This document shows positions 6,423 to 33,774 of a stretch of DNA of 37,153 nucleotides, piece by piece (the first letter of the stretch is position 1; each line of letters begins with the position of its first letter). Below the pieces are notes generated by a model. The model was not told the origin of the DNA. It ran no database searches and worked only from the letters and a program-made list of their open reading frames with translations. The stretch covers positions 1-37,153 of the IMG/VR virus record IMGVR_UViG_3300020084_000040, one strand, 5' to 3'. Both the position numbers and the translations under genes were made by a program. The stretch comes from a virus.

Positions 6423-7130
6423 TTACCCTCCCGTAGGGATTCTTATATACCATCCTGTAATGATGTATTTATCTTGAGTAAACACCGTGTTTCCTTTATG
6501 CACATGAGTCATGCCAGCTGGCCAAATAACAACCGTGCCTTTTGTTGGTTTAAATCTACGTTTTTGATATAAAAATTCTGTTTCCGCTTCACCATCTGGC
6601 ATATCATTCAAATAAATCATCCATACTAATTCTCTTTGTGCATAATTCCATGTAGAATTTTCATAATGCCACATATGATAACCTCCGCCAGGGTTAGTCC
6701 TTTGCATTTTAATATCAGTAGATACTAACGGAGAGTGCCTTAGTTGACTAAACTTACTTGCATAATGTGTAACACACGAGTGTAAAAATTGATTTACTTG
6801 GTGAGATAAAGTATAACTGCTGTAATTAATCAAAAGAGACGTATCTGCTCTGCCCATGTTACCAAAACTATTAAATTGCTTAGATCCATCCATTATGCCT
6901 TCTTCTACGCCAGTAATTCTGTGCTGAATCTTCCCAGGGGGAGAATCTTCGTCATCATAACCTTCATAGAGACATGTGGCCTTTAGTTGTTTCTCAAAAT
7001 GGGAGATTAAATCATCACAAAATGCTCCTGGGACAAAATTTTCCCAGACACCAATAAAATCAGTGCACTCAAATTTCGTGATATTAGGGTCCTCCATCAA
7101 TTCTAATGGACGATAAGGAGGTAAATTCAT
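6423..7130 (-). CDS. 2OG-Fe(II) oxygenase, prolyl-4-hydroxylase-like
   Basis: A 235-residue dioxygenase. The metal-binding candidates are H155-Y-E157 (in MWHYEN) and H211 in THVHKG; the 2OG-binding base is probably K221 before IITGWY. As in the other oxygenase, the acidic ligand is Glu rather than the usual Asp. MIYLNDMPDGEAETEF and GTVVIWPAGMTHVHKG mark the core. The start is the ATG at 7130, six bases inside a longer frame whose first codon is TTG. It lies immediately after the glycine-rich adhesin gene, whose stop at 7133 is 2 nt from this ATG, so hydroxylation of fibre residues is a reasonable hypothesis without direct proof. Confidence 0.88.
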   Translation of the reverse strand: MNLPPYRPLELMEDPNITKFECTDFIGVWENFVPGAFCDDLISHFEKQLKATCLYEGYDDEDSPPGKIQHRITGVEEGIMDGSKQFNSFGNMGRADTSLLINYSSYTLSHQVNQFLHSCVTHYASKFSQLRHSPLVSTDIKMQRTNPGGGYHMWHYENSTWNYAQRELVWMIYLNDMPDGEAETEFLYQKRRFKPTKGTVVIWPAGMTHVHKGNTVFTQDKYIITGWYIRIPTGG

Positions 7131-7132
7131 AC

Positions 7133-10100
7133 TCAAAAAGCCTTAATAAGATATCTTGTACGTGAATATTTATTCATTAAACTAACACTCTTTTGCGGCG
7201 ATAAAGTTACGGTAGGTGTTAATTGTTTAGCATTTGAAAGTTGGAATGTAGCATCATTAGCTGATATACCTAAATTAGCTTGTTGAAATTCTACAGTGAC
7301 ATTTGATTGTGGCGTTGGGATTCCAACTGTGTGCCCTCCTCCAGTGCTATTTCCATATCCAAAATGGTTTGCCTGAGTGCCATAATCATCATCAAGTTTT
7401 ATATAGTGACTGTGCGTAATTTGTCCTCCTTCTGGATTATACAGTTGTACACTAGCATTACCTTGTAAAATAGCAAGCGCTGCAAGACAATTTCCTGAGG
7501 AATTGTCTAGTGGTACAGTGTTTATTTTGTGAGTATTTTCCGCCCCAAAATTATTTTGCCACCACATATATCTTGTAGCCTGCTCACCCTGGTATTCTAT
7601 ATCGAAGAGAGCAAGTAAATATTGAGCAGCCGTAGGGTAACCTTGTGAGGGTGGAGGAGCAATTGTTTTTGATGGATCATATGATTGTTGATTTGCAGGT
7701 GCAAAAAATTTAAAAACAGAGCACGAGGGACTGCCCATTGTGTTTCCTGCACCACTATTTCTGGTCCATCCCGTCATAGCATTTATACCCCATCTTACTA
7801 CAGAATATCCACTAACATCATTTGGTATTGATGTGACAGCAGCATGTTGATGCCCTGGCATTGCTGTAAGAGACTCATTTAACGGTCCAATACTGACATT
7901 CATATTACCAGCAATAGTATATTGGACCTGCCCTTGCACCTGTGAATACCCAGCCGTAGATAAATTGCCTAATTTCCAGAATAACCCCTCAGTATCATTA
8001 GGAGTGCCGTCATATACTTGCTCTAGCGGTGGTGTGCTAGCAGCATCTATTGTATCAATAAACCATTGTCCACCTGATGCTCCTGGAGTTTGAATATCTC
8101 CAGTTACATTGCTATCTGGATCTGCTCCTCTTGTAGTTGTTAATCCTGGAGATCCAGCAGAGTTTCCATCTACCCTACCAACTCCAGCAAGTTTTCTGTT
8201 TCTATAATTAGGGACTCTAAATTTTCCAGTAAACGTATAACCAGTTACTATACCTGCAGTAAGTACTGGCGTTTCTACCGCATCACCACCATAAGTATTT
8301 CCTATAACTTTAAATAGAGCGTAATATTGTGCAGGATCTAAGTATCTACCATCACATTCAACAAATCCAGGAAATCTAGAGTCATTTGCACCAGTTAAAG
8401 TGCCCCAGTCTCCTGTTTTACTTTTAGTAACAGAAATAACTGTGCCAATTGTTAGTCCATCTTCCTTGCGTTTTCTTCTAGTAGCAGAATCAATAATTGC
8501 AAGATCACTATACCATTGTCCATAAACATTTGATGTATCTGGTGCAGTTGCATATGTTGTAACCTGGAAAGGAGCGCTAACTGTGCCTGCAGTAACTGTA
8601 ATTGATAAACTAGTGCCTAGTGCTGTGCTAGGTGGCATATCAATTCTTATCGAATCATTTGGATTAATTTGTCTGGGTCCAGGTTGAGCAGTGTCTCCGT
8701 TGACTGAAATTAATGGAGGTTGAGATGATGCACCAGTGCCAGACGGAAGACTAGTAGTAACAGTGATCGGGACTGTAAACCCAGTTAATGTAATAGTATT
8801 ACTTGATGCTAACGCTAATAGTGGAGAAGGAGGAGAGTTTGTTACATTTACAAAACTAAACGGGTTTGGTATAGAATCTGGAGAAGCTGCAGTAGTAATA
8901 GTCCACGGATTTACATCATAATCTCCAACTTTTATCTGCAAGGATCTTACAGTAGATACAAGTGGAGCTGCATCCATTTTAATTTCTAACTTGTATCCGT
9001 TTCTAACGTTTACAGGGAAACTACCAAAACTCCCTGGGGTTGCTCCTGGAGCAGTGGATCTACAACTTACAGTAGCACCAGCAGTAAAATTAACAATAGT
9101 TACTGGCACATCATAATCAGCGCTAAATTCGGCGGGACCAAACTCGCGCTCCGCCGTATAAAATGTTGTAGGAGAAGTTATGGCATCTATTATATTTGTA
9201 AAAGTAAATGGCACTGGAGTAATGTCAACGCCAACCCCCGTTGTAACTGACCAAGAAATAGCTGCCGAAGATGCAATTGTAATATTTCCTACTACTGGCG
9301 TATTTGCGCTAGACGCAGATGTAAGCTTAAGTTGTAAATACTGACCATTGGTGACAGTTGCAGATGATCCAAATGTGCCACCAGTTAAAACACCGCTAGC
9401 ATTAACTGCATTCGTAGATGCTACCGCAACTTGAAATCCTGCTGGTCCACTTAAAACAACATTTCCAGGAGCAGATAAACCAGATATTTGCACCACATTA
9501 CTGTGATAAACCTGCGAAATTAGTGCATCGGTGACATCTAAAAATTGAGGTAAAGGACTGGGTATATTTCCCCCAACAGCTTGAGTAACAATAATAAAAT
9601 CAGCCTGAGCAGATCCTATTGTCAATCTCGTGTAGACAGAAGATGATGAATTGCTAGAAGAGTTGCTCTTCAACCTTATCTGTGCTCCATTTGCTACTGT
9701 TAACCCAGTAAAATCGGTAACATATGCTCCAGCAGAAACCGTAGAAATTGAAATTGCTTTTCCTGATGCTGTGCCAGCTACTGTAATTGGAGCATTATAT
9801 CCAGCGGGGAGACCAGAAATTGTTACAAAATTACTTGTTGTTCCGCCACTAGTTGTTGTGCTTTCATAGGCAGTATTAATTATAGCCGAATCAATTTGAT
9901 TAAAAGAGAAGGTATTTGGCGTAATAATAGGCTGAATGAATGAAAAACTCACCGCTCCTATACCGCCCATTCCAGGTGGACCTCCTTTTGAGGATTGCAT
10001 TCCAGCGCCACCACCACCATACGATCCACCGCCACTCGCCTGCAAAGTATTATTATTAAAAGTAGCAATACTACCACTAACGCCGTTTGACGCAGTACCA

Positions 10101-11728
10101 CCAGACCCAGCCGTAGCACCAGAAATTGATGTTGATAATAAAACGTGAGTGCCTGTGCTACCATTTGCCCCAGGACCATTAACACCAACTCCACCTCCAC
10201 CAGTAGCACCAAATTTACTAGCGTTGCCACCGCCGCCACCGCCGCCTATTGGAGCAGAGAAAGATCCATCACTATTTTTACCATAAGCTCCTTGTGCGCC
10301 TTGGTTGTTTGTATACCCTGCGGCGCCACCGCCGCCAGACCCAGGAGATTCGTTAGGAGGATTATAATCTGGAGCACCACCATTGCCACCATTACCACCG
10401 TCAATAACTACAGCTTTGCCATTTAGATTAGAAAAATATCCCAGCAAAGATCCAGCGCCGCCAGCTCCACCCTGAGATGCAACACCAGATCCAGTAACTA
10501 CATTTAGATTATCTGCAAATGTTGCTGTGGCTTGATTTGGAATAACAGATCCAGTGCCTGCTAAAAATTCAATACTTTTTACCAATACAGATGAAGACCC
10601 GCTTAAAATAGCACTTACAGTAAGTCTATAATTATGTTTACCAGCTGGTGGTGCTGGACCACCATATCCTATACTGTTAACATATGGTAGCGATTGTGAT
10701 GGCCAACTAGTATTTTGTATTGATGCTCCTGGCGGAAGAGTTGTGATGGCATTGGTGCTACCACTAGATACTGCAGTTTTAATCCAAAATGGATGCGATC
10801 CGAGCGAAGAGAGAGTAAATTGAAGAGTATCTCCAGAAATTATATTAAGAGTTGGATTGTTTCCCGTAGCATTACCAGTAAATTGATAAGCGGATGAACT
10901 TGATGCTGATACAGTATATGTTTTGGTGACAGGATTGTAAGGAAGACTCGTTGGATTTGTTACAACAATTTGCCCATTCATTGAGGTTGGGTGGTTACCA
11001 CAAACATAATAATAAGTTCCTGGTGTTAATCCAGCGGTATTCCAAGTAACCGTGCCAGATGTAGCGCCATTATTTGTTATGGTGCCAAACGTTTGCCCAA
11101 AAGATATACTCGTAACCGTTGGCGAGATACCAGTCAAATGCCAATGCACAAATTTGCCAGCAGTACTTAAATCTTCTATGTGAATTCTATAACTACTAAC
11201 GGTAACGCCTGTAGGCAAGTTAGACACAGACCACTGCAATGGTGGATTGTCGTTTTCTGCTCCAGTAAGTCCACTTTGAGTACTATAGATAGCTATTGGC
11301 GCATCAGTGCCTGCAGCAACTGCTCCAGTGCCAGTAGATGTTAATGTCATTACTGCAGCGTTGGTGACAGTGCCTCCATATCCTTGACCACCGACTCCGT
11401 TTGCTGTGCCTCCTTTACCGCCCTCTGCTTCAATATAAGTTACTGTTTCTGTGTTATTTTTTACCCACGAAGATTCACCATCAGCACCATAACCTCCCCC
11501 ACTGCCACCATTTCCACCATTACCAACAAAGAATTTTAAAACTTCACCAGCAGATACAGGCATGTCAACAATTCTTCTTAACCCGCCACCTCCGCCGCCA
11601 AACCCACCTACTCCAGAAGATCCACCACCGCCGCCACCCACTGCAATTACTGTAACTTGGTTAACACCGAGAGGTACAGTCCACTGCCCTGCTCCTGGAG
11701 TACTAAATGTTACGAGATCTGTTGTCAT
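7133..11728 (-). CDS. 1531-residue tail adhesin with nested domains and a tail-collar tip
   Basis: A probable receptor-binding fibre protein. Visible domains are: glycine-rich sheet domain, part 1 (about 1-120); PEBP-like half with HIED and FVHW (121-208); cupredoxin-like segment in swapped order (209-328) with C243, H246, M250 and H312; second PEBP-like half, YGGPAPPAGKHNY (329-376); glycine-rich part 2 (about 415-598); four tandem beta repeats of about 115 residues (600-1063); a Phage_Collar domain (1093-1182); and a histidine-rich tip with H1293-x-H1295 and H1439-x-H1441 that may bind metal as in T4-type fibre tips. It ends in the YLIKAF tail shared with its neighbours. ATG at 11728 follows AAAGGA. 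It stands between a smaller collar protein and an oxygenase. Confidence 0.88.
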   Translation of the reverse strand: MTTDLVTFSTPGAGQWTVPLGVNQVTVIAVGGGGGGSSGVGGFGGGGGGLRRIVDMPVSAGEVLKFFVGNGGNGGSGGGYGADGESSWVKNNTETVTYIEAEGGKGGTANGVGGQGYGGTVTNAAVMTLTSTGTGAVAAGTDAPIAIYSTQSGLTGAENDNPPLQWSVSNLPTGVTVSSYRIHIEDLSTAGKFVHWHLTGISPTVTSISFGQTFGTITNNGATSGTVTWNTAGLTPGTYYYVCGNHPTSMNGQIVVTNPTSLPYNPVTKTYTVSASSSSAYQFTGNATGNNPTLNIISGDTLQFTLSSLGSHPFWIKTAVSSGSTNAITTLPPGASIQNTSWPSQSLPYVNSIGYGGPAPPAGKHNYRLTVSAILSGSSSVLVKSIEFLAGTGSVIPNQATATFADNLNVVTGSGVASQGGAGGAGSLLGYFSNLNGKAVVIDGGNGGNGGAPDYNPPNESPGSGGGGAAGYTNNQGAQGAYGKNSDGSFSAPIGGGGGGGNASKFGATGGGGVGVNGPGANGSTGTHVLLSTSISGATAGSGGTASNGVSGSIATFNNNTLQASGGGSYGGGGAGMQSSKGGPPGMGGIGAVSFSFIQPIITPNTFSFNQIDSAIINTAYESTTTSGGTTSNFVTISGLPAGYNAPITVAGTASGKAISISTVSAGAYVTDFTGLTVANGAQIRLKSNSSSNSSSSVYTRLTIGSAQADFIIVTQAVGGNIPSPLPQFLDVTDALISQVYHSNVVQISGLSAPGNVVLSGPAGFQVAVASTNAVNASGVLTGGTFGSSATVTNGQYLQLKLTSASSANTPVVGNITIASSAAISWSVTTGVGVDITPVPFTFTNIIDAITSPTTFYTAEREFGPAEFSADYDVPVTIVNFTAGATVSCRSTAPGATPGSFGSFPVNVRNGYKLEIKMDAAPLVSTVRSLQIKVGDYDVNPWTITTAASPDSIPNPFSFVNVTNSPPSPLLALASSNTITLTGFTVPITVTTSLPSGTGASSQPPLISVNGDTAQPGPRQINPNDSIRIDMPPSTALGTSLSITVTAGTVSAPFQVTTYATAPDTSNVYGQWYSDLAIIDSATRRKRKEDGLTIGTVISVTKSKTGDWGTLTGANDSRFPGFVECDGRYLDPAQYYALFKVIGNTYGGDAVETPVLTAGIVTGYTFTGKFRVPNYRNRKLAGVGRVDGNSAGSPGLTTTRGADPDSNVTGDIQTPGASGGQWFIDTIDAASTPPLEQVYDGTPNDTEGLFWKLGNLSTAGYSQVQGQVQYTIAGNMNVSIGPLNESLTAMPGHQHAAVTSIPNDVSGYSVVRWGINAMTGWTRNSGAGNTMGSPSCSVFKFFAPANQQSYDPSKTIAPPPSQGYPTAAQYLLALFDIEYQGEQATRYMWWQNNFGAENTHKINTVPLDNSSGNCLAALAILQGNASVQLYNPEGGQITHSHYIKLDDDYGTQANHFGYGNSTGGGHTVGIPTPQSNVTVEFQQANLGISANDATFQLSNAKQLTPTVTLSPQKSVSLMNKYSRTRYLIKAF

Positions 11729-30657: not shown

Positions 30658-33600
30658 TTAAGCACGTATTAGAATGAGTGGATTAAGGAGATGTGGCGTT
30701 GATGCTGTAGCAACCGCTGGTGCCGCTGCTGGCGTAACCCCGCCCTGTGCAGAGTTTGATCTAGCGAGTTGTGTGCTTGGCACAACAGGCACAATCGCCG
30801 TTTTTGGAGGTGGTGTTGCACTCCTTCCTCCATTCATTCCACCACCCGCAGGGGGTGGTTTAACAGTAGGTTTGGTGTTAGGAGGAGTGGCAGGCGGTGC
30901 TGCTGGAGCAGGCATTGAGGCAGCATCTGGAGCTGAGATCTTGGTGGCAAAGTCTTTTATTTTCGAAACAATATCGTCAATATCTGATATTTGTGCAAAT
31001 GGATTGTTTATGCTTTTACCTAAGTTTTCTGCTGTTTGACTATCCGCATTTGATGAAGGATTACTTTCATCCACTCCGTCGCCTGGAGACGGCGTACCAG
31101 TAAAAGGAGCCATATAACTATATCTAGACAAAGGTTCTATGAGTGATCTCCCCATACGACCAGTATCTTCAGGATTTGTTCCTGTTTCCCAGTGAAGGTG
31201 TGGTCCAGTAGATACTCCCGTGCTTCCTATTTGCCCCAAGATTTTTCCTTTTTTAAACTCTGTGCCAGCAGCAGTATTTTTACCAAAAGCACTTAGGTGA
31301 GCATACATATGCCCCAAACCAGTATCTTTTTCCACCCAATGTATCTGTTTTCCATATGACCTGCTGCCTTCATCTCTGCGATCTAGTACTTTACCATCTT
31401 TGAAAGCAAATAAATTAGTCCCCTGGGGAGCGCTAATATCCGTCCCCTGGTGCATTACCCTTCTGCCATATACAGGGTGCATCCTCATTCCTCTTTTATC
31501 ACCGACCGAAATTCCACTTCTTGCTTTGATTGTAGAAATATTTTTTTCTGGTCCATACAATCCAGTGCCAAAATTTTTCCGTTGAGTTTCTGAAAGAGAC
31601 GAAATAGGAGTAGTCACGGTAGTTGCAGTTGTCGATGTAGATGCAGTGCCATCTGGATTTAAGTTAGGATCTCCAGGACGCACAGCATTTCCATATGGAT
31701 CGGTTAGTGTTCTTTTTTCAGTAACAATACCATGTTTTTCATAATTATAATATCCAATTGGCGGTTGATTGGTGACTACAACTTGACCAGTCTGTAAATT
31801 TCTATAAAATTTGCCAGCAGTACTAAGACCAACTTTTAATTCGCTTGGTCCTACTTCTCTAATAGATTTTGCGCCCGCCGCAGGATCAATAAAAAACACT
31901 CTACCCGTTTTATCATAATAATATTTGTCAGATAGTTGACCGCCCCAATCTACCATTTTAACACGTTTTACCCCAGCTTTATCTGTGCCAGTTGCTGCAG
32001 ATATTACTTGATCTCCCCCTGGCAATATACCATTGTTATCAACTTTTTTATTTACAAAACCAACATTTTTTTGTAATTTAGATAGTGTCGTTGGCTCTGG
32101 TGGACTACCTGGTGGTGGATTATCGCTTGAGCTGTTAGGATCCCCGCCTTCCCCTGGTCCTGTTTCTGGTCCTGCTCCTGGACCTGATGGTGACGGGGTG
32201 GGGGTCGGTGATGTAGACTTCTTATCTACATTTACTCCTTGATCTGATAAACTTTTTTTCATCACTTCGGCAAAATATTTCTCTCCCTCTTTGCCAAATG
32301 TTTTCTTTCCAAAAGATCCTTTACCTAAGGATGTTGTGGTCAATGGATTAGAAATGCCAAAATCTCTTGATAGTCTAGAAATATCTTGTCTAATCATATC
32401 TCCAGCAATACCAGAATCGGTATGCTTCAACATTCTATCAGTAATCCCAAGAATAGCAGCGCCTACCGCTTTCATTGGCGTTGCTAACATTTCATCTGTG
32501 CTTCCTTGCCCAATAGCATCTTTCCCTACATTTCGATTTAATGGAATGACAGAAGATCCTGGTGGTAATACACCAGTTGTAGGATTATCATACACTCCAC
32601 TGGGAATGACACCTCCCTCAGATAGTTTTTCTTGTGGCATCATTGATGCAGGGTCACTCAAATCTCTCGCCATTAATCCAGCATCTAATGCTACAGATGC
32701 TGCAGTGCCAAATCCAGGAACAGTAGATACTGCGCCAGACGCTATTTCAGTCAATCCACCACCCCAATCGCCACGCATCATTCTCTCAATGCCAAATCCA
32801 ACGCCAGCAACTAATCCTATCAAAGGAATTTTTTTAAGTAATGCTTTGCCAACTCCTTTAGCAACCGCTTTAGTGCCTTGTTTTGCTGCTACTTTTCCTC
32901 CCGCCTTAAGACCTTCTTTTCCCGCCACTTTACCTAAAAATTTAGATCCAAACCCCTTTGCATTTTTTGCTAATCTACCTGCCGATCGTACTCCTCGTCT
33001 ACCAGCAACTTTTAATTTTCTAGCAACTCTAGTTTTTTTAAGGTGACCACCAATATCTAAAACATTATCTGCTATATCTAAAGCACTAAGAAGTCCTCCT
33101 AGCGGTCCACCGCCACCTTGATCATCGTCATCGTCATCGCCCCCGCCATCATTTCCATTTCCTTTTTTCTTACCATCGGATGTAATAGGAGAAGACAAGT
33201 CAGAGGAATCTTCTATTTTCTCCGCTGCTTTTTCCATACGAGCATATTTTGCCTGCTCAAGCATGTCACGTTTAATCTCAGTTTGCTCTTGAAGCAAACT
33301 ATTGATTGATGTTAAACTTCCCGCCATCATTTTATTGGCAGAATGCACCTTGCCCGTTAAGTTACTAATATTTGAAAGTTTTCCTACCATTACGGTAGTG
33401 TCTTTTAATAATAATCCAAATGCATTGGTAAGAAAATTTTTTAATTTTTTTGCTCCACTGCCGCCGCCACCACTTCCTCCAGATCCTCTACTTTTTGTTT
33501 CTGCTGCAGAATCTTTTTCTTTTGGTTGATTCCAAGAAAACCCTTTCGCCCAGTTGGATTTTTCTTTTTTTGATTTAAGTGGATTAAAATTATTTTTTAA

Positions 33601-33774
33601 AGACTTAGTAAATAACGATCCCTTCTTAACTTCAGTACCTTCTTTATTTGCTTTTTCTTTTTCGCCTTTTGCTTGTTCAGCAGAATCCCTAATTTTTGCG
33701 CCAATTGACTTAGCAATTCCAAAAAGTGATGGTCCTTCGCCAGCTGCAATAGGGGTTTCTAATCCTGCTGTCAT
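30658..33774 (-). CDS. large tail protein with M23 metallopeptidase domain
   Basis: A 1038-residue low-complexity protein with one compact enzyme. Residues 745-885 form an M23 (lysostaphin-type) peptidase with the full zinc set: H775-x3-D779 (MHQGTD), H826 (YAHL) and H859-x-H861 (GPHLHWE). This would cut peptide bridges in peptidoglycan during DNA entry. N-terminal parts are Lys/Gly-rich with an Asp run (213-218). A hydrophobic stretch (about 315-330) and the EGGVIPSG...LPPGSSVIPLNR segment (386-414) recall tape-measure proteins. The tail is Pro/Ala-rich. The pairing with the upstream SleB-domain protein suggests both are hub or tape-measure-like components. Confidence 0.82.
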   Translation of the reverse strand: MTAGLETPIAAGEGPSLFGIAKSIGAKIRDSAEQAKGEKEKANKEGTEVKKGSLFTKSLKNNFNPLKSKKEKSNWAKGFSWNQPKEKDSAAETKSRGSGGSGGGGSGAKKLKNFLTNAFGLLLKDTTVMVGKLSNISNLTGKVHSANKMMAGSLTSINSLLQEQTEIKRDMLEQAKYARMEKAAEKIEDSSDLSSPITSDGKKKGNGNDGGGDDDDDDQGGGGPLGGLLSALDIADNVLDIGGHLKKTRVARKLKVAGRRGVRSAGRLAKNAKGFGSKFLGKVAGKEGLKAGGKVAAKQGTKAVAKGVGKALLKKIPLIGLVAGVGFGIERMMRGDWGGGLTEIASGAVSTVPGFGTAASVALDAGLMARDLSDPASMMPQEKLSEGGVIPSGVYDNPTTGVLPPGSSVIPLNRNVGKDAIGQGSTDEMLATPMKAVGAAILGITDRMLKHTDSGIAGDMIRQDISRLSRDFGISNPLTTTSLGKGSFGKKTFGKEGEKYFAEVMKKSLSDQGVNVDKKSTSPTPTPSPSGPGAGPETGPGEGGDPNSSSDNPPPGSPPEPTTLSKLQKNVGFVNKKVDNNGILPGGDQVISAATGTDKAGVKRVKMVDWGGQLSDKYYYDKTGRVFFIDPAAGAKSIREVGPSELKVGLSTAGKFYRNLQTGQVVVTNQPPIGYYNYEKHGIVTEKRTLTDPYGNAVRPGDPNLNPDGTASTSTTATTVTTPISSLSETQRKNFGTGLYGPEKNISTIKARSGISVGDKRGMRMHPVYGRRVMHQGTDISAPQGTNLFAFKDGKVLDRRDEGSRSYGKQIHWVEKDTGLGHMYAHLSAFGKNTAAGTEFKKGKILGQIGSTGVSTGPHLHWETGTNPEDTGRMGRSLIEPLSRYSYMAPFTGTPSPGDGVDESNPSSNADSQTAENLGKSINNPFAQISDIDDIVSKIKDFATKISAPDAASMPAPAAPPATPPNTKPTVKPPPAGGGMNGGRSATPPPKTAIVPVVPSTQLARSNSAQGGVTPAAAPAVATASTPHLLNPLILIRA

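Follow-up and report, generated by a model that had tools for sequence, protein, structure and literature searches.

Our analysis indicates that residues 213-330 of a phage short tail fibre very probably form a type-1 copper cupredoxin with a natural circular permutation, borne by the fibre as a plug-in domain. The fibre is encoded in the window, by which we mean the whole stretch of 37,153 nucleotides analysed (positions 1 to 37,153 of IMG/VR record IMGVR_UViG_3300020084_000040); the features discussed below are collected in table 1. According to the arrangement we propose, a linker of about 11 residues would connect the old C- and N-termini of the cupredoxin, and the chain would have its new termini in the loop that separates the HPFWIKT and NNG strands. 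A PEBP-like domain would receive both of these termini in one surface loop, flanked by TVTSISFG and LPPGAS, and would in turn be inserted in a Gly-rich domain. This nested order had been put forward in an initial annotation of the DNA, and the reading frame and all of the peptides which that annotation quoted are found in the sequence.

Table 1. Coordinates in the window of the fibre gene, its domains and the candidate copper ligands
Feature	Position	Strand	Basis
ORF, 1531 aa, short tail fibre of T4-like cyanophage (by sequence)	7133..11728	minus	PHROG 4924 match, cyanophage relatives
Short tail fibre body, residues 603-1531	7136..9922	minus	PHROG 4924; Pfam Collar
Gly-rich domain, first half, residues 10-122	11363..11701	minus	PF21722
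PEBP-like domain, first part, residues about 123-212 (PPLQW, FVHW)	11093..11362	minus	Pfam PBP
Putative circularly permuted cupredoxin, residues about 213-330	10739..11092	minus	Half-domain HMMs, predicted fold, PDB match 5SYD
Cupredoxin C-terminal half, first in chain, residues 213-258	10955..11092	minus	C-half HMM
Candidate copper ligand C243	11000..11002	minus	Aligned to plastocyanin Cys
Candidate copper ligand H246	10991..10993	minus	Aligned to plastocyanin His
Candidate copper ligand M250	10979..10981	minus	Aligned to plastocyanin Met
Linker between former C- and N-termini, residues 259-269	10922..10954	minus	Lies between half-domain matches
Cupredoxin N-terminal half, second in chain, residues 270-330	10739..10921	minus	N-half HMM
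Candidate copper ligand H312	10793..10795	minus	Aligned to plastocyanin first His
PEBP-like domain, second part, residues about 331-394 (LPPGAS, YGGPAPPAGKHNYRLTVSAI)	10547..10738	minus	Second PBP stretch; joined match
Gly-rich domain, second half, residues about 395-603	9920..10546	minus	Joined PF21722 match

The fibre protein and its nested domains

Judged by its sequence, the 1531-residue protein is the short tail fibre of a T4-like cyanophage. Its body matches PHROG 4924 at 1.8e-152 over profile positions 55-1022 of 1022, as befits a member of this family of fibre bodies, and contains a phage tail collar domain at residues 1120-1155 (Pfam Collar, 5.2e-9). The 57 GenBank phage records matching the protein are cyanophage or marine without exception, and the genes flanking its ORF encode the baseplate hub, further fibres and tail proteins. 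(Two genes for 2OG-Fe(II) oxygenases [PHROG 61] are also present near the fibre genes, at 304-864 and 6423-7136 [minus], the latter having a four-base overlap with the end of the fibre gene; a 1038-aa protein encoded at 30658-33774 [minus], adjoining the baseplate hub genes, has a metallo-endopeptidase/endolysin-like part at residues about 770-870.)

The block of residues 123-394, that is the PEBP-like domain with its cupredoxin, forms an N-terminal extension that is covered by none of the listed GenBank relatives of the fibre. The exact PEBP-nested architecture is found in two near-identical contigs only, and whole-block searches for a further PEBP-nested example recovered the near-identical contig alone. 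Such rarity would fit an order of domains created by a chimeric metagenome contig, an explanation that we regard as extremely improbable since the second contig (IMGVR_UViG_3300020083_000113, from another IMG/VR metagenome record) has the same block over 12,840 bp with one mismatch, the 1531-aa frame is open across the block, and the permuted order of the cupredoxin halves occurs also in many other contigs and in the cultured phage S-CAM1, which is represented by seven GenBank records.

The nesting emerges from the comparison of split and rejoined domains. With the block in place, the Gly-rich profile PF21722 scores 21.8 bits, under its cut-off of 24.3; when the block is left out, the score becomes 32.9 bits (E 8.8e-8, profile positions 2-219 of 226), the cut-off thus being passed only by the joined halves. 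Similarly, Pfam PBP (PF01161) matches the intact protein in two stretches (39.5 bits, 8.7e-10; cut-off 24 bits) and reaches 50.0 bits (5e-13) once the insert is removed. At the level of profile matches, therefore, both outer domains score higher when rejoined, bearing out the three levels of nesting that had been proposed. Alignment places the insertion site in the PEBP loop that leads from the strand following HW to the LPxGA segment. The HW and YGGPxPP motifs and a later His of PEBPs are retained, and IEDLS occupies the place of the ligand-site motif DPDxP; given that this motif is mostly lost, the domain more probably acts as a scaffold than as a functional binder of ligands.

In a structural model of residues 115-420 the PEBP part has low confidence (pLDDT about 40-60), a limit that applies equally to the results that a Foldseek search of this model against the PDB returned nothing at E <= 0.001 and that PEBP chains were absent from its VIA-align list. 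An alignment scan of viral contigs for PEBPs gave YbcL-like matches at 25-30% identity, among which a second fibre-borne PEBP was not recognised. (A first mixed alignment placed PEBP rows on the cupredoxin and was excluded from folding.)

Chain order, candidate copper ligands and predicted fold

The permuted order was recognised with half-domain HMMs built from normal-order phage relatives, which score 61.2 bits for the C-half and 71.9 bits for the N-half in the window. The two halves follow each other in C-then-N order, 12 residues apart, and no further half is found elsewhere in the protein; such scores, together with this order, argue against a chance resemblance. The arrangement reverses the usual chain order of cupredoxins, in which the His strand comes before the Cys-His-Met region. 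In its native order the segment found no plastocyanin in the PDB, but with the halves swapped back it matched plastocyanin 1b3i at 2e-4, and residues H312, C243, H246 and M250 then align to the copper ligands of that protein. Even when re-ordered, the segment stays below the cut-offs of the Pfam cupredoxin families PF00127/PF13473 (18.3 bits, cut-off 27; 18.0 bits, cut-off 21.2), as do most normal-order phage relatives, L085 alone reaching 21.5. The spacing of the ligands is Cx2Hx3M in the window and Cx2Hx2M in its relatives. Both ligand loops of the window are, in fact, one residue longer than those of the relatives (10793-10798, GSHPF versus GHPF; 10979-11002, Cx2Hx3M versus Cx2Hx2M).

Folded alone, residues 209-333 yielded a nine-stranded model with mean pLDDT 90.8 and pTM 0.85, the best of five models that span 90.8 to 56.0; the alignment used for folding combined half-fragments of normal-order relatives with five permuted or tandem rows. 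The cupredoxin core was again confident in the model of residues 115-420. In the VIA-align ranking, an azurin engineered to be circularly permuted (5SYD) comes out as the best PDB match for the model of 115-420 (Z 5.5, rmsd 3.3 over 87 residues) and for that of 209-333 (Z 3.9, rmsd 3.7 over 85 residues), and Foldseek likewise placed 5SYD first for the shorter model (probability 0.69, E 0.18). These scores are modest, yet the first rank of a permuted cupredoxin among 350,542 chains is what a permuted chain order would lead one to expect. The best viral structural match is the 'putative proximal tail fiber' of S-CAM1 (E 2e-5, probability 1.00, rmsd 2.2 over 97 columns).

Taken together, ligands and predicted fold lead us to classify the segment as a circularly permuted variant of cupredoxin-like type, the beta-sandwich being that of a predicted structure with modest match scores. 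Several points of the initial annotation can now be made precise. The four ligand residues it listed are all present and correctly numbered, and the permutation it suspected is sustained by the order of the halves with respect to relatives, by the match to plastocyanin after re-ordering only and by the confident predicted fold. Among the outcomes that would have spoken against it, a fold other than a Greek-key sandwich is at odds with the nine-strand beta structure of the model, and a pair of independent normal-order domains is absent here, the homologues having normal order elsewhere. The location of the segment is right, its best bounds being 213-330 instead of 209-328, with the second half of the PEBP domain starting from about residue 331.

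As the short tail fibres of T4-like phages form trimers, the halves might pair across neighbouring chains to generate three normal-looking cupredoxins between chains. We consider this domain swap improbable, because prediction, in which only single chains were folded, folds one chain confidently, and because the permuted domain is present also in a subtilisin-like protein for which a trimer is not expected. A permuted cupredoxin within each chain remains our preferred reading.

Normal-order and permuted relatives in phage virion proteins

Where the domain occurs in related virion proteins of phages, the counterpart of residues 268-330 directly precedes that of residues 217-260, and 97 of the 102 distinct domains in the first set examined have this normal order. 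Searches by tblastn with half-domains found 124 normal-order pairs in 102 loci versus 13 permuted pairs, which belong either to the window and its copies or to six contigs of one other protein type; half-domain HMMs found 160 N-C neighbours versus 16 C-N neighbours, of which three are in fact tandems of normal order. (L021/L093 and L040, considered as C-then-N, were ruled out as normal-order tandems by the half-domain HMMs; P-HM1, P-HM2 and S-SCSM1, considered as permuted, proved to have normal order.) In a tree of the 102 domains the permuted ones fall among those of normal order, indicating that the permutation is probably derived from the normal order. For the window and propeller types described below, the tree is compatible with either one or two origins.

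Tandem arrays of normal order (L395, L396, L406, L419, L429), which have linkers about ten residues long and a C1-to-N2 spacing matched by the same DNA pattern as the permuted domains, may represent the natural precursor that is usual for permutation by duplication and truncation. Most likely, a tandem N1-C1-N2-C2 pair would have lost its outer halves, leaving a C1-N2 unit that was captured in a loop. The existence of these arrays also means that a leftover of two cupredoxins could easily be made, in which a C-half and an N-half persist side by side as a decaying linker that does not fold jointly. The retention of all four ligands, the prediction of the isolated segment as one confident domain, the purifying selection on the same order in S-CAM1-type proteins and its recurrence in propeller-like fibres make such a remnant very improbable, and favour instead a permuted domain that folds as a unit. 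(In L408 and L417 cupredoxin halves form odd runs in which one more HPF motif follows the second N-half, and these may be intermediates in domain shuffling; a distinct set of short proteins of the virion [L397-L399, L409-L412, L416, L420, L422, L423, L425-L427] begins with two tandem normal-order cupredoxin-like repeats, YYYCxxHSGMGG.)

The permuted order recurs in other phage proteins, among them gp094 of S-CAM1 (A0A1D8KFC6, the protein annotated as 'putative proximal tail fiber'). Its permuted domain starts with YWYQC203-TA-H206-PN-M209, continues with an N-half containing H272 and ends with NNGSDSGDVVWNL after this N-half, so that its cut point lies one strand further on than that of the window, before the Cys strand; the host domain is subtilisin-like (Pfam Peptidase_S8). 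The same form is present in 33 IMG/VR contigs, and among 14 distinct sequences the four ligands are invariant, with a median dN/dS of 0.25 over the domain. The homologous S-CAM4 protein is without insert between the Asp and His regions and has a normal-order cupredoxin at its C-terminus. Cyanophage subtilisin-like (S8) virion proteins with cupredoxins (L355:1907-4162; L360-L392; L085:1288-3333) have the latter either C-terminal and in normal order, as in S-CAM4 and ACG-2014j, or permuted in the Asp-His loop, as in S-CAM1. The strand of the S-CAM1 protein expected to bear the catalytic Asp reads VDIVTLES, and the protease may thus be dead.

A window-type permutation is found, in addition, in a propeller-like fibre of 14 contigs, some of them near-copies (L124, L266, L267, L268, L218, L271, L400, L418, L405, L413, L424, L403, L415, L414). 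These fibres often bear an additional normal-order cupredoxin, and a joined-flank search for an empty-site orthologue of them found none. A further permuted copy lies near the C-terminus of another virion protein (L430/L434). The different cut point of the S-CAM1 domain suggests at least two permutation events overall. The initial annotation regarded a copper-binding, three-level nested domain as new on a phage adhesin; this view was too narrow, since normal-order and permuted relatives are frequent among the virion proteins of marine phages.

The complete set of four ligands is retained by 94 of the 102 distinct domains, with the spacing Cx2Hx2M in every one of these except the window. By analogy with plastocyanin, one Cys, two His and one Met would hold one copper ion, and we consider it probable that each domain binds a single copper. 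The bound metal would tie the two halves together, giving a stable domain for display or recognition on the virion surface; a role in stabilising the display domain or in host contact is an evenly balanced proposition. The fold might alternatively serve as a rigid, Ig-like decoration with inherited ligands, either not loaded with copper or binding another metal such as zinc. Fibres are assembled in the cytoplasm, where copper is scarce, the Cys-His-Met spacing in the window is unusual, and some relatives persist without Cys or His (L231, L116, L029, L042). Nonetheless, the conservation of the ligands across most distinct domains and their invariance in the S-CAM1-type sequences render this metal-free alternative rather unlikely, and we retain a copper-binding domain as the better explanation. 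(The domains of L231, L116 [YYYSSENHANLSG], L029, L042 and L090 have lost copper ligands and retained the fold motifs, and form a natural metal-free control set.)

More tentatively, marine phage virions could make recurrent use of permuted type-1 copper cupredoxins as a plug-in module, derived on more than one occasion from normal-order domains in tandem and inserted in the loops of folds unrelated to each other (PEBP, propeller-like repeat, subtilisin-like), the bound copper possibly serving host recognition or redox-dependent attachment. Nature has apparently made permuted cupredoxins repeatedly, keeping their copper ligands and using the permutation to nest them in loops of other folds. Because cultured cyanophage S-CAM1, which grows on Synechococcus, carries one, the presence of copper in marine phage particles is directly testable, and so is circular permutation as a route to domain insertability.

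Comparison with known systems

In the open literature, with subscription journals mostly outside its scope, we found no paper joining cupredoxin and phage tail fibre, and no natural case described for circular permutation of a cupredoxin; the engineered 5SYD was the sole permuted cupredoxin found with a solved structure. While the fold of the type-1 copper domain is known, its circular permutation in nature, recurrent and in nested form, is thus provisionally considered new.

The phage domain resembles 5SYD in having its C- and N-terminal parts swapped and its ligands in changed chain order, but unlike that man-made, free-standing protein it is of natural origin and nested within another domain, and the two share only about 7-15% identity. 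With the plastocyanin/azurin family (PF00127, PF13473; Prochlorothrix plastocyanin 1B3I) it shares four ligands that align after re-ordering, but differs in its permuted strand order, in its Cx2Hx3M spacing and in being part of a virion protein instead of a soluble electron carrier. Metal sites on adhesins have precedent in phage tail fibres with HxH motifs that bind iron (T4 gp37; Alteromonas phage R22Y; PMC11705849), which make a metal-bearing adhesin plausible and are no evidence for copper: those sites bind iron through repeated HxH motifs, whereas that of the window would be of type-1 copper kind, with ligands deduced from sequence.

The PEBPs nearest to that of the window, and comparable to it as host domain of the insert, are bacterial YbhB/YbcL-type proteins (PF01161; joined match as given above, best identity 37%), which have no insert in the loop where the window carries the cupredoxin and, unlike the window, have not mostly lost DPDxP. 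The nearest relatives of each cupredoxin half are the normal-order domains of marine phages (S-CAM4, the subtilisin-like protein of ACG-2014j, L017, L012), which have the same ligands and are up to 68% identical to the C-half and about 50% identical to the N-half, but carry the N-half before the C-half and usually lie outside any other domain. In S-CAM1 gp094 and its 33 contig relatives, as in the window, a permuted cupredoxin with four ligands, invariant in the S-CAM1 form, is inserted in another domain, with the differences that the chain is cut one strand on and that the host domain is subtilisin-like instead of PEBP-like.
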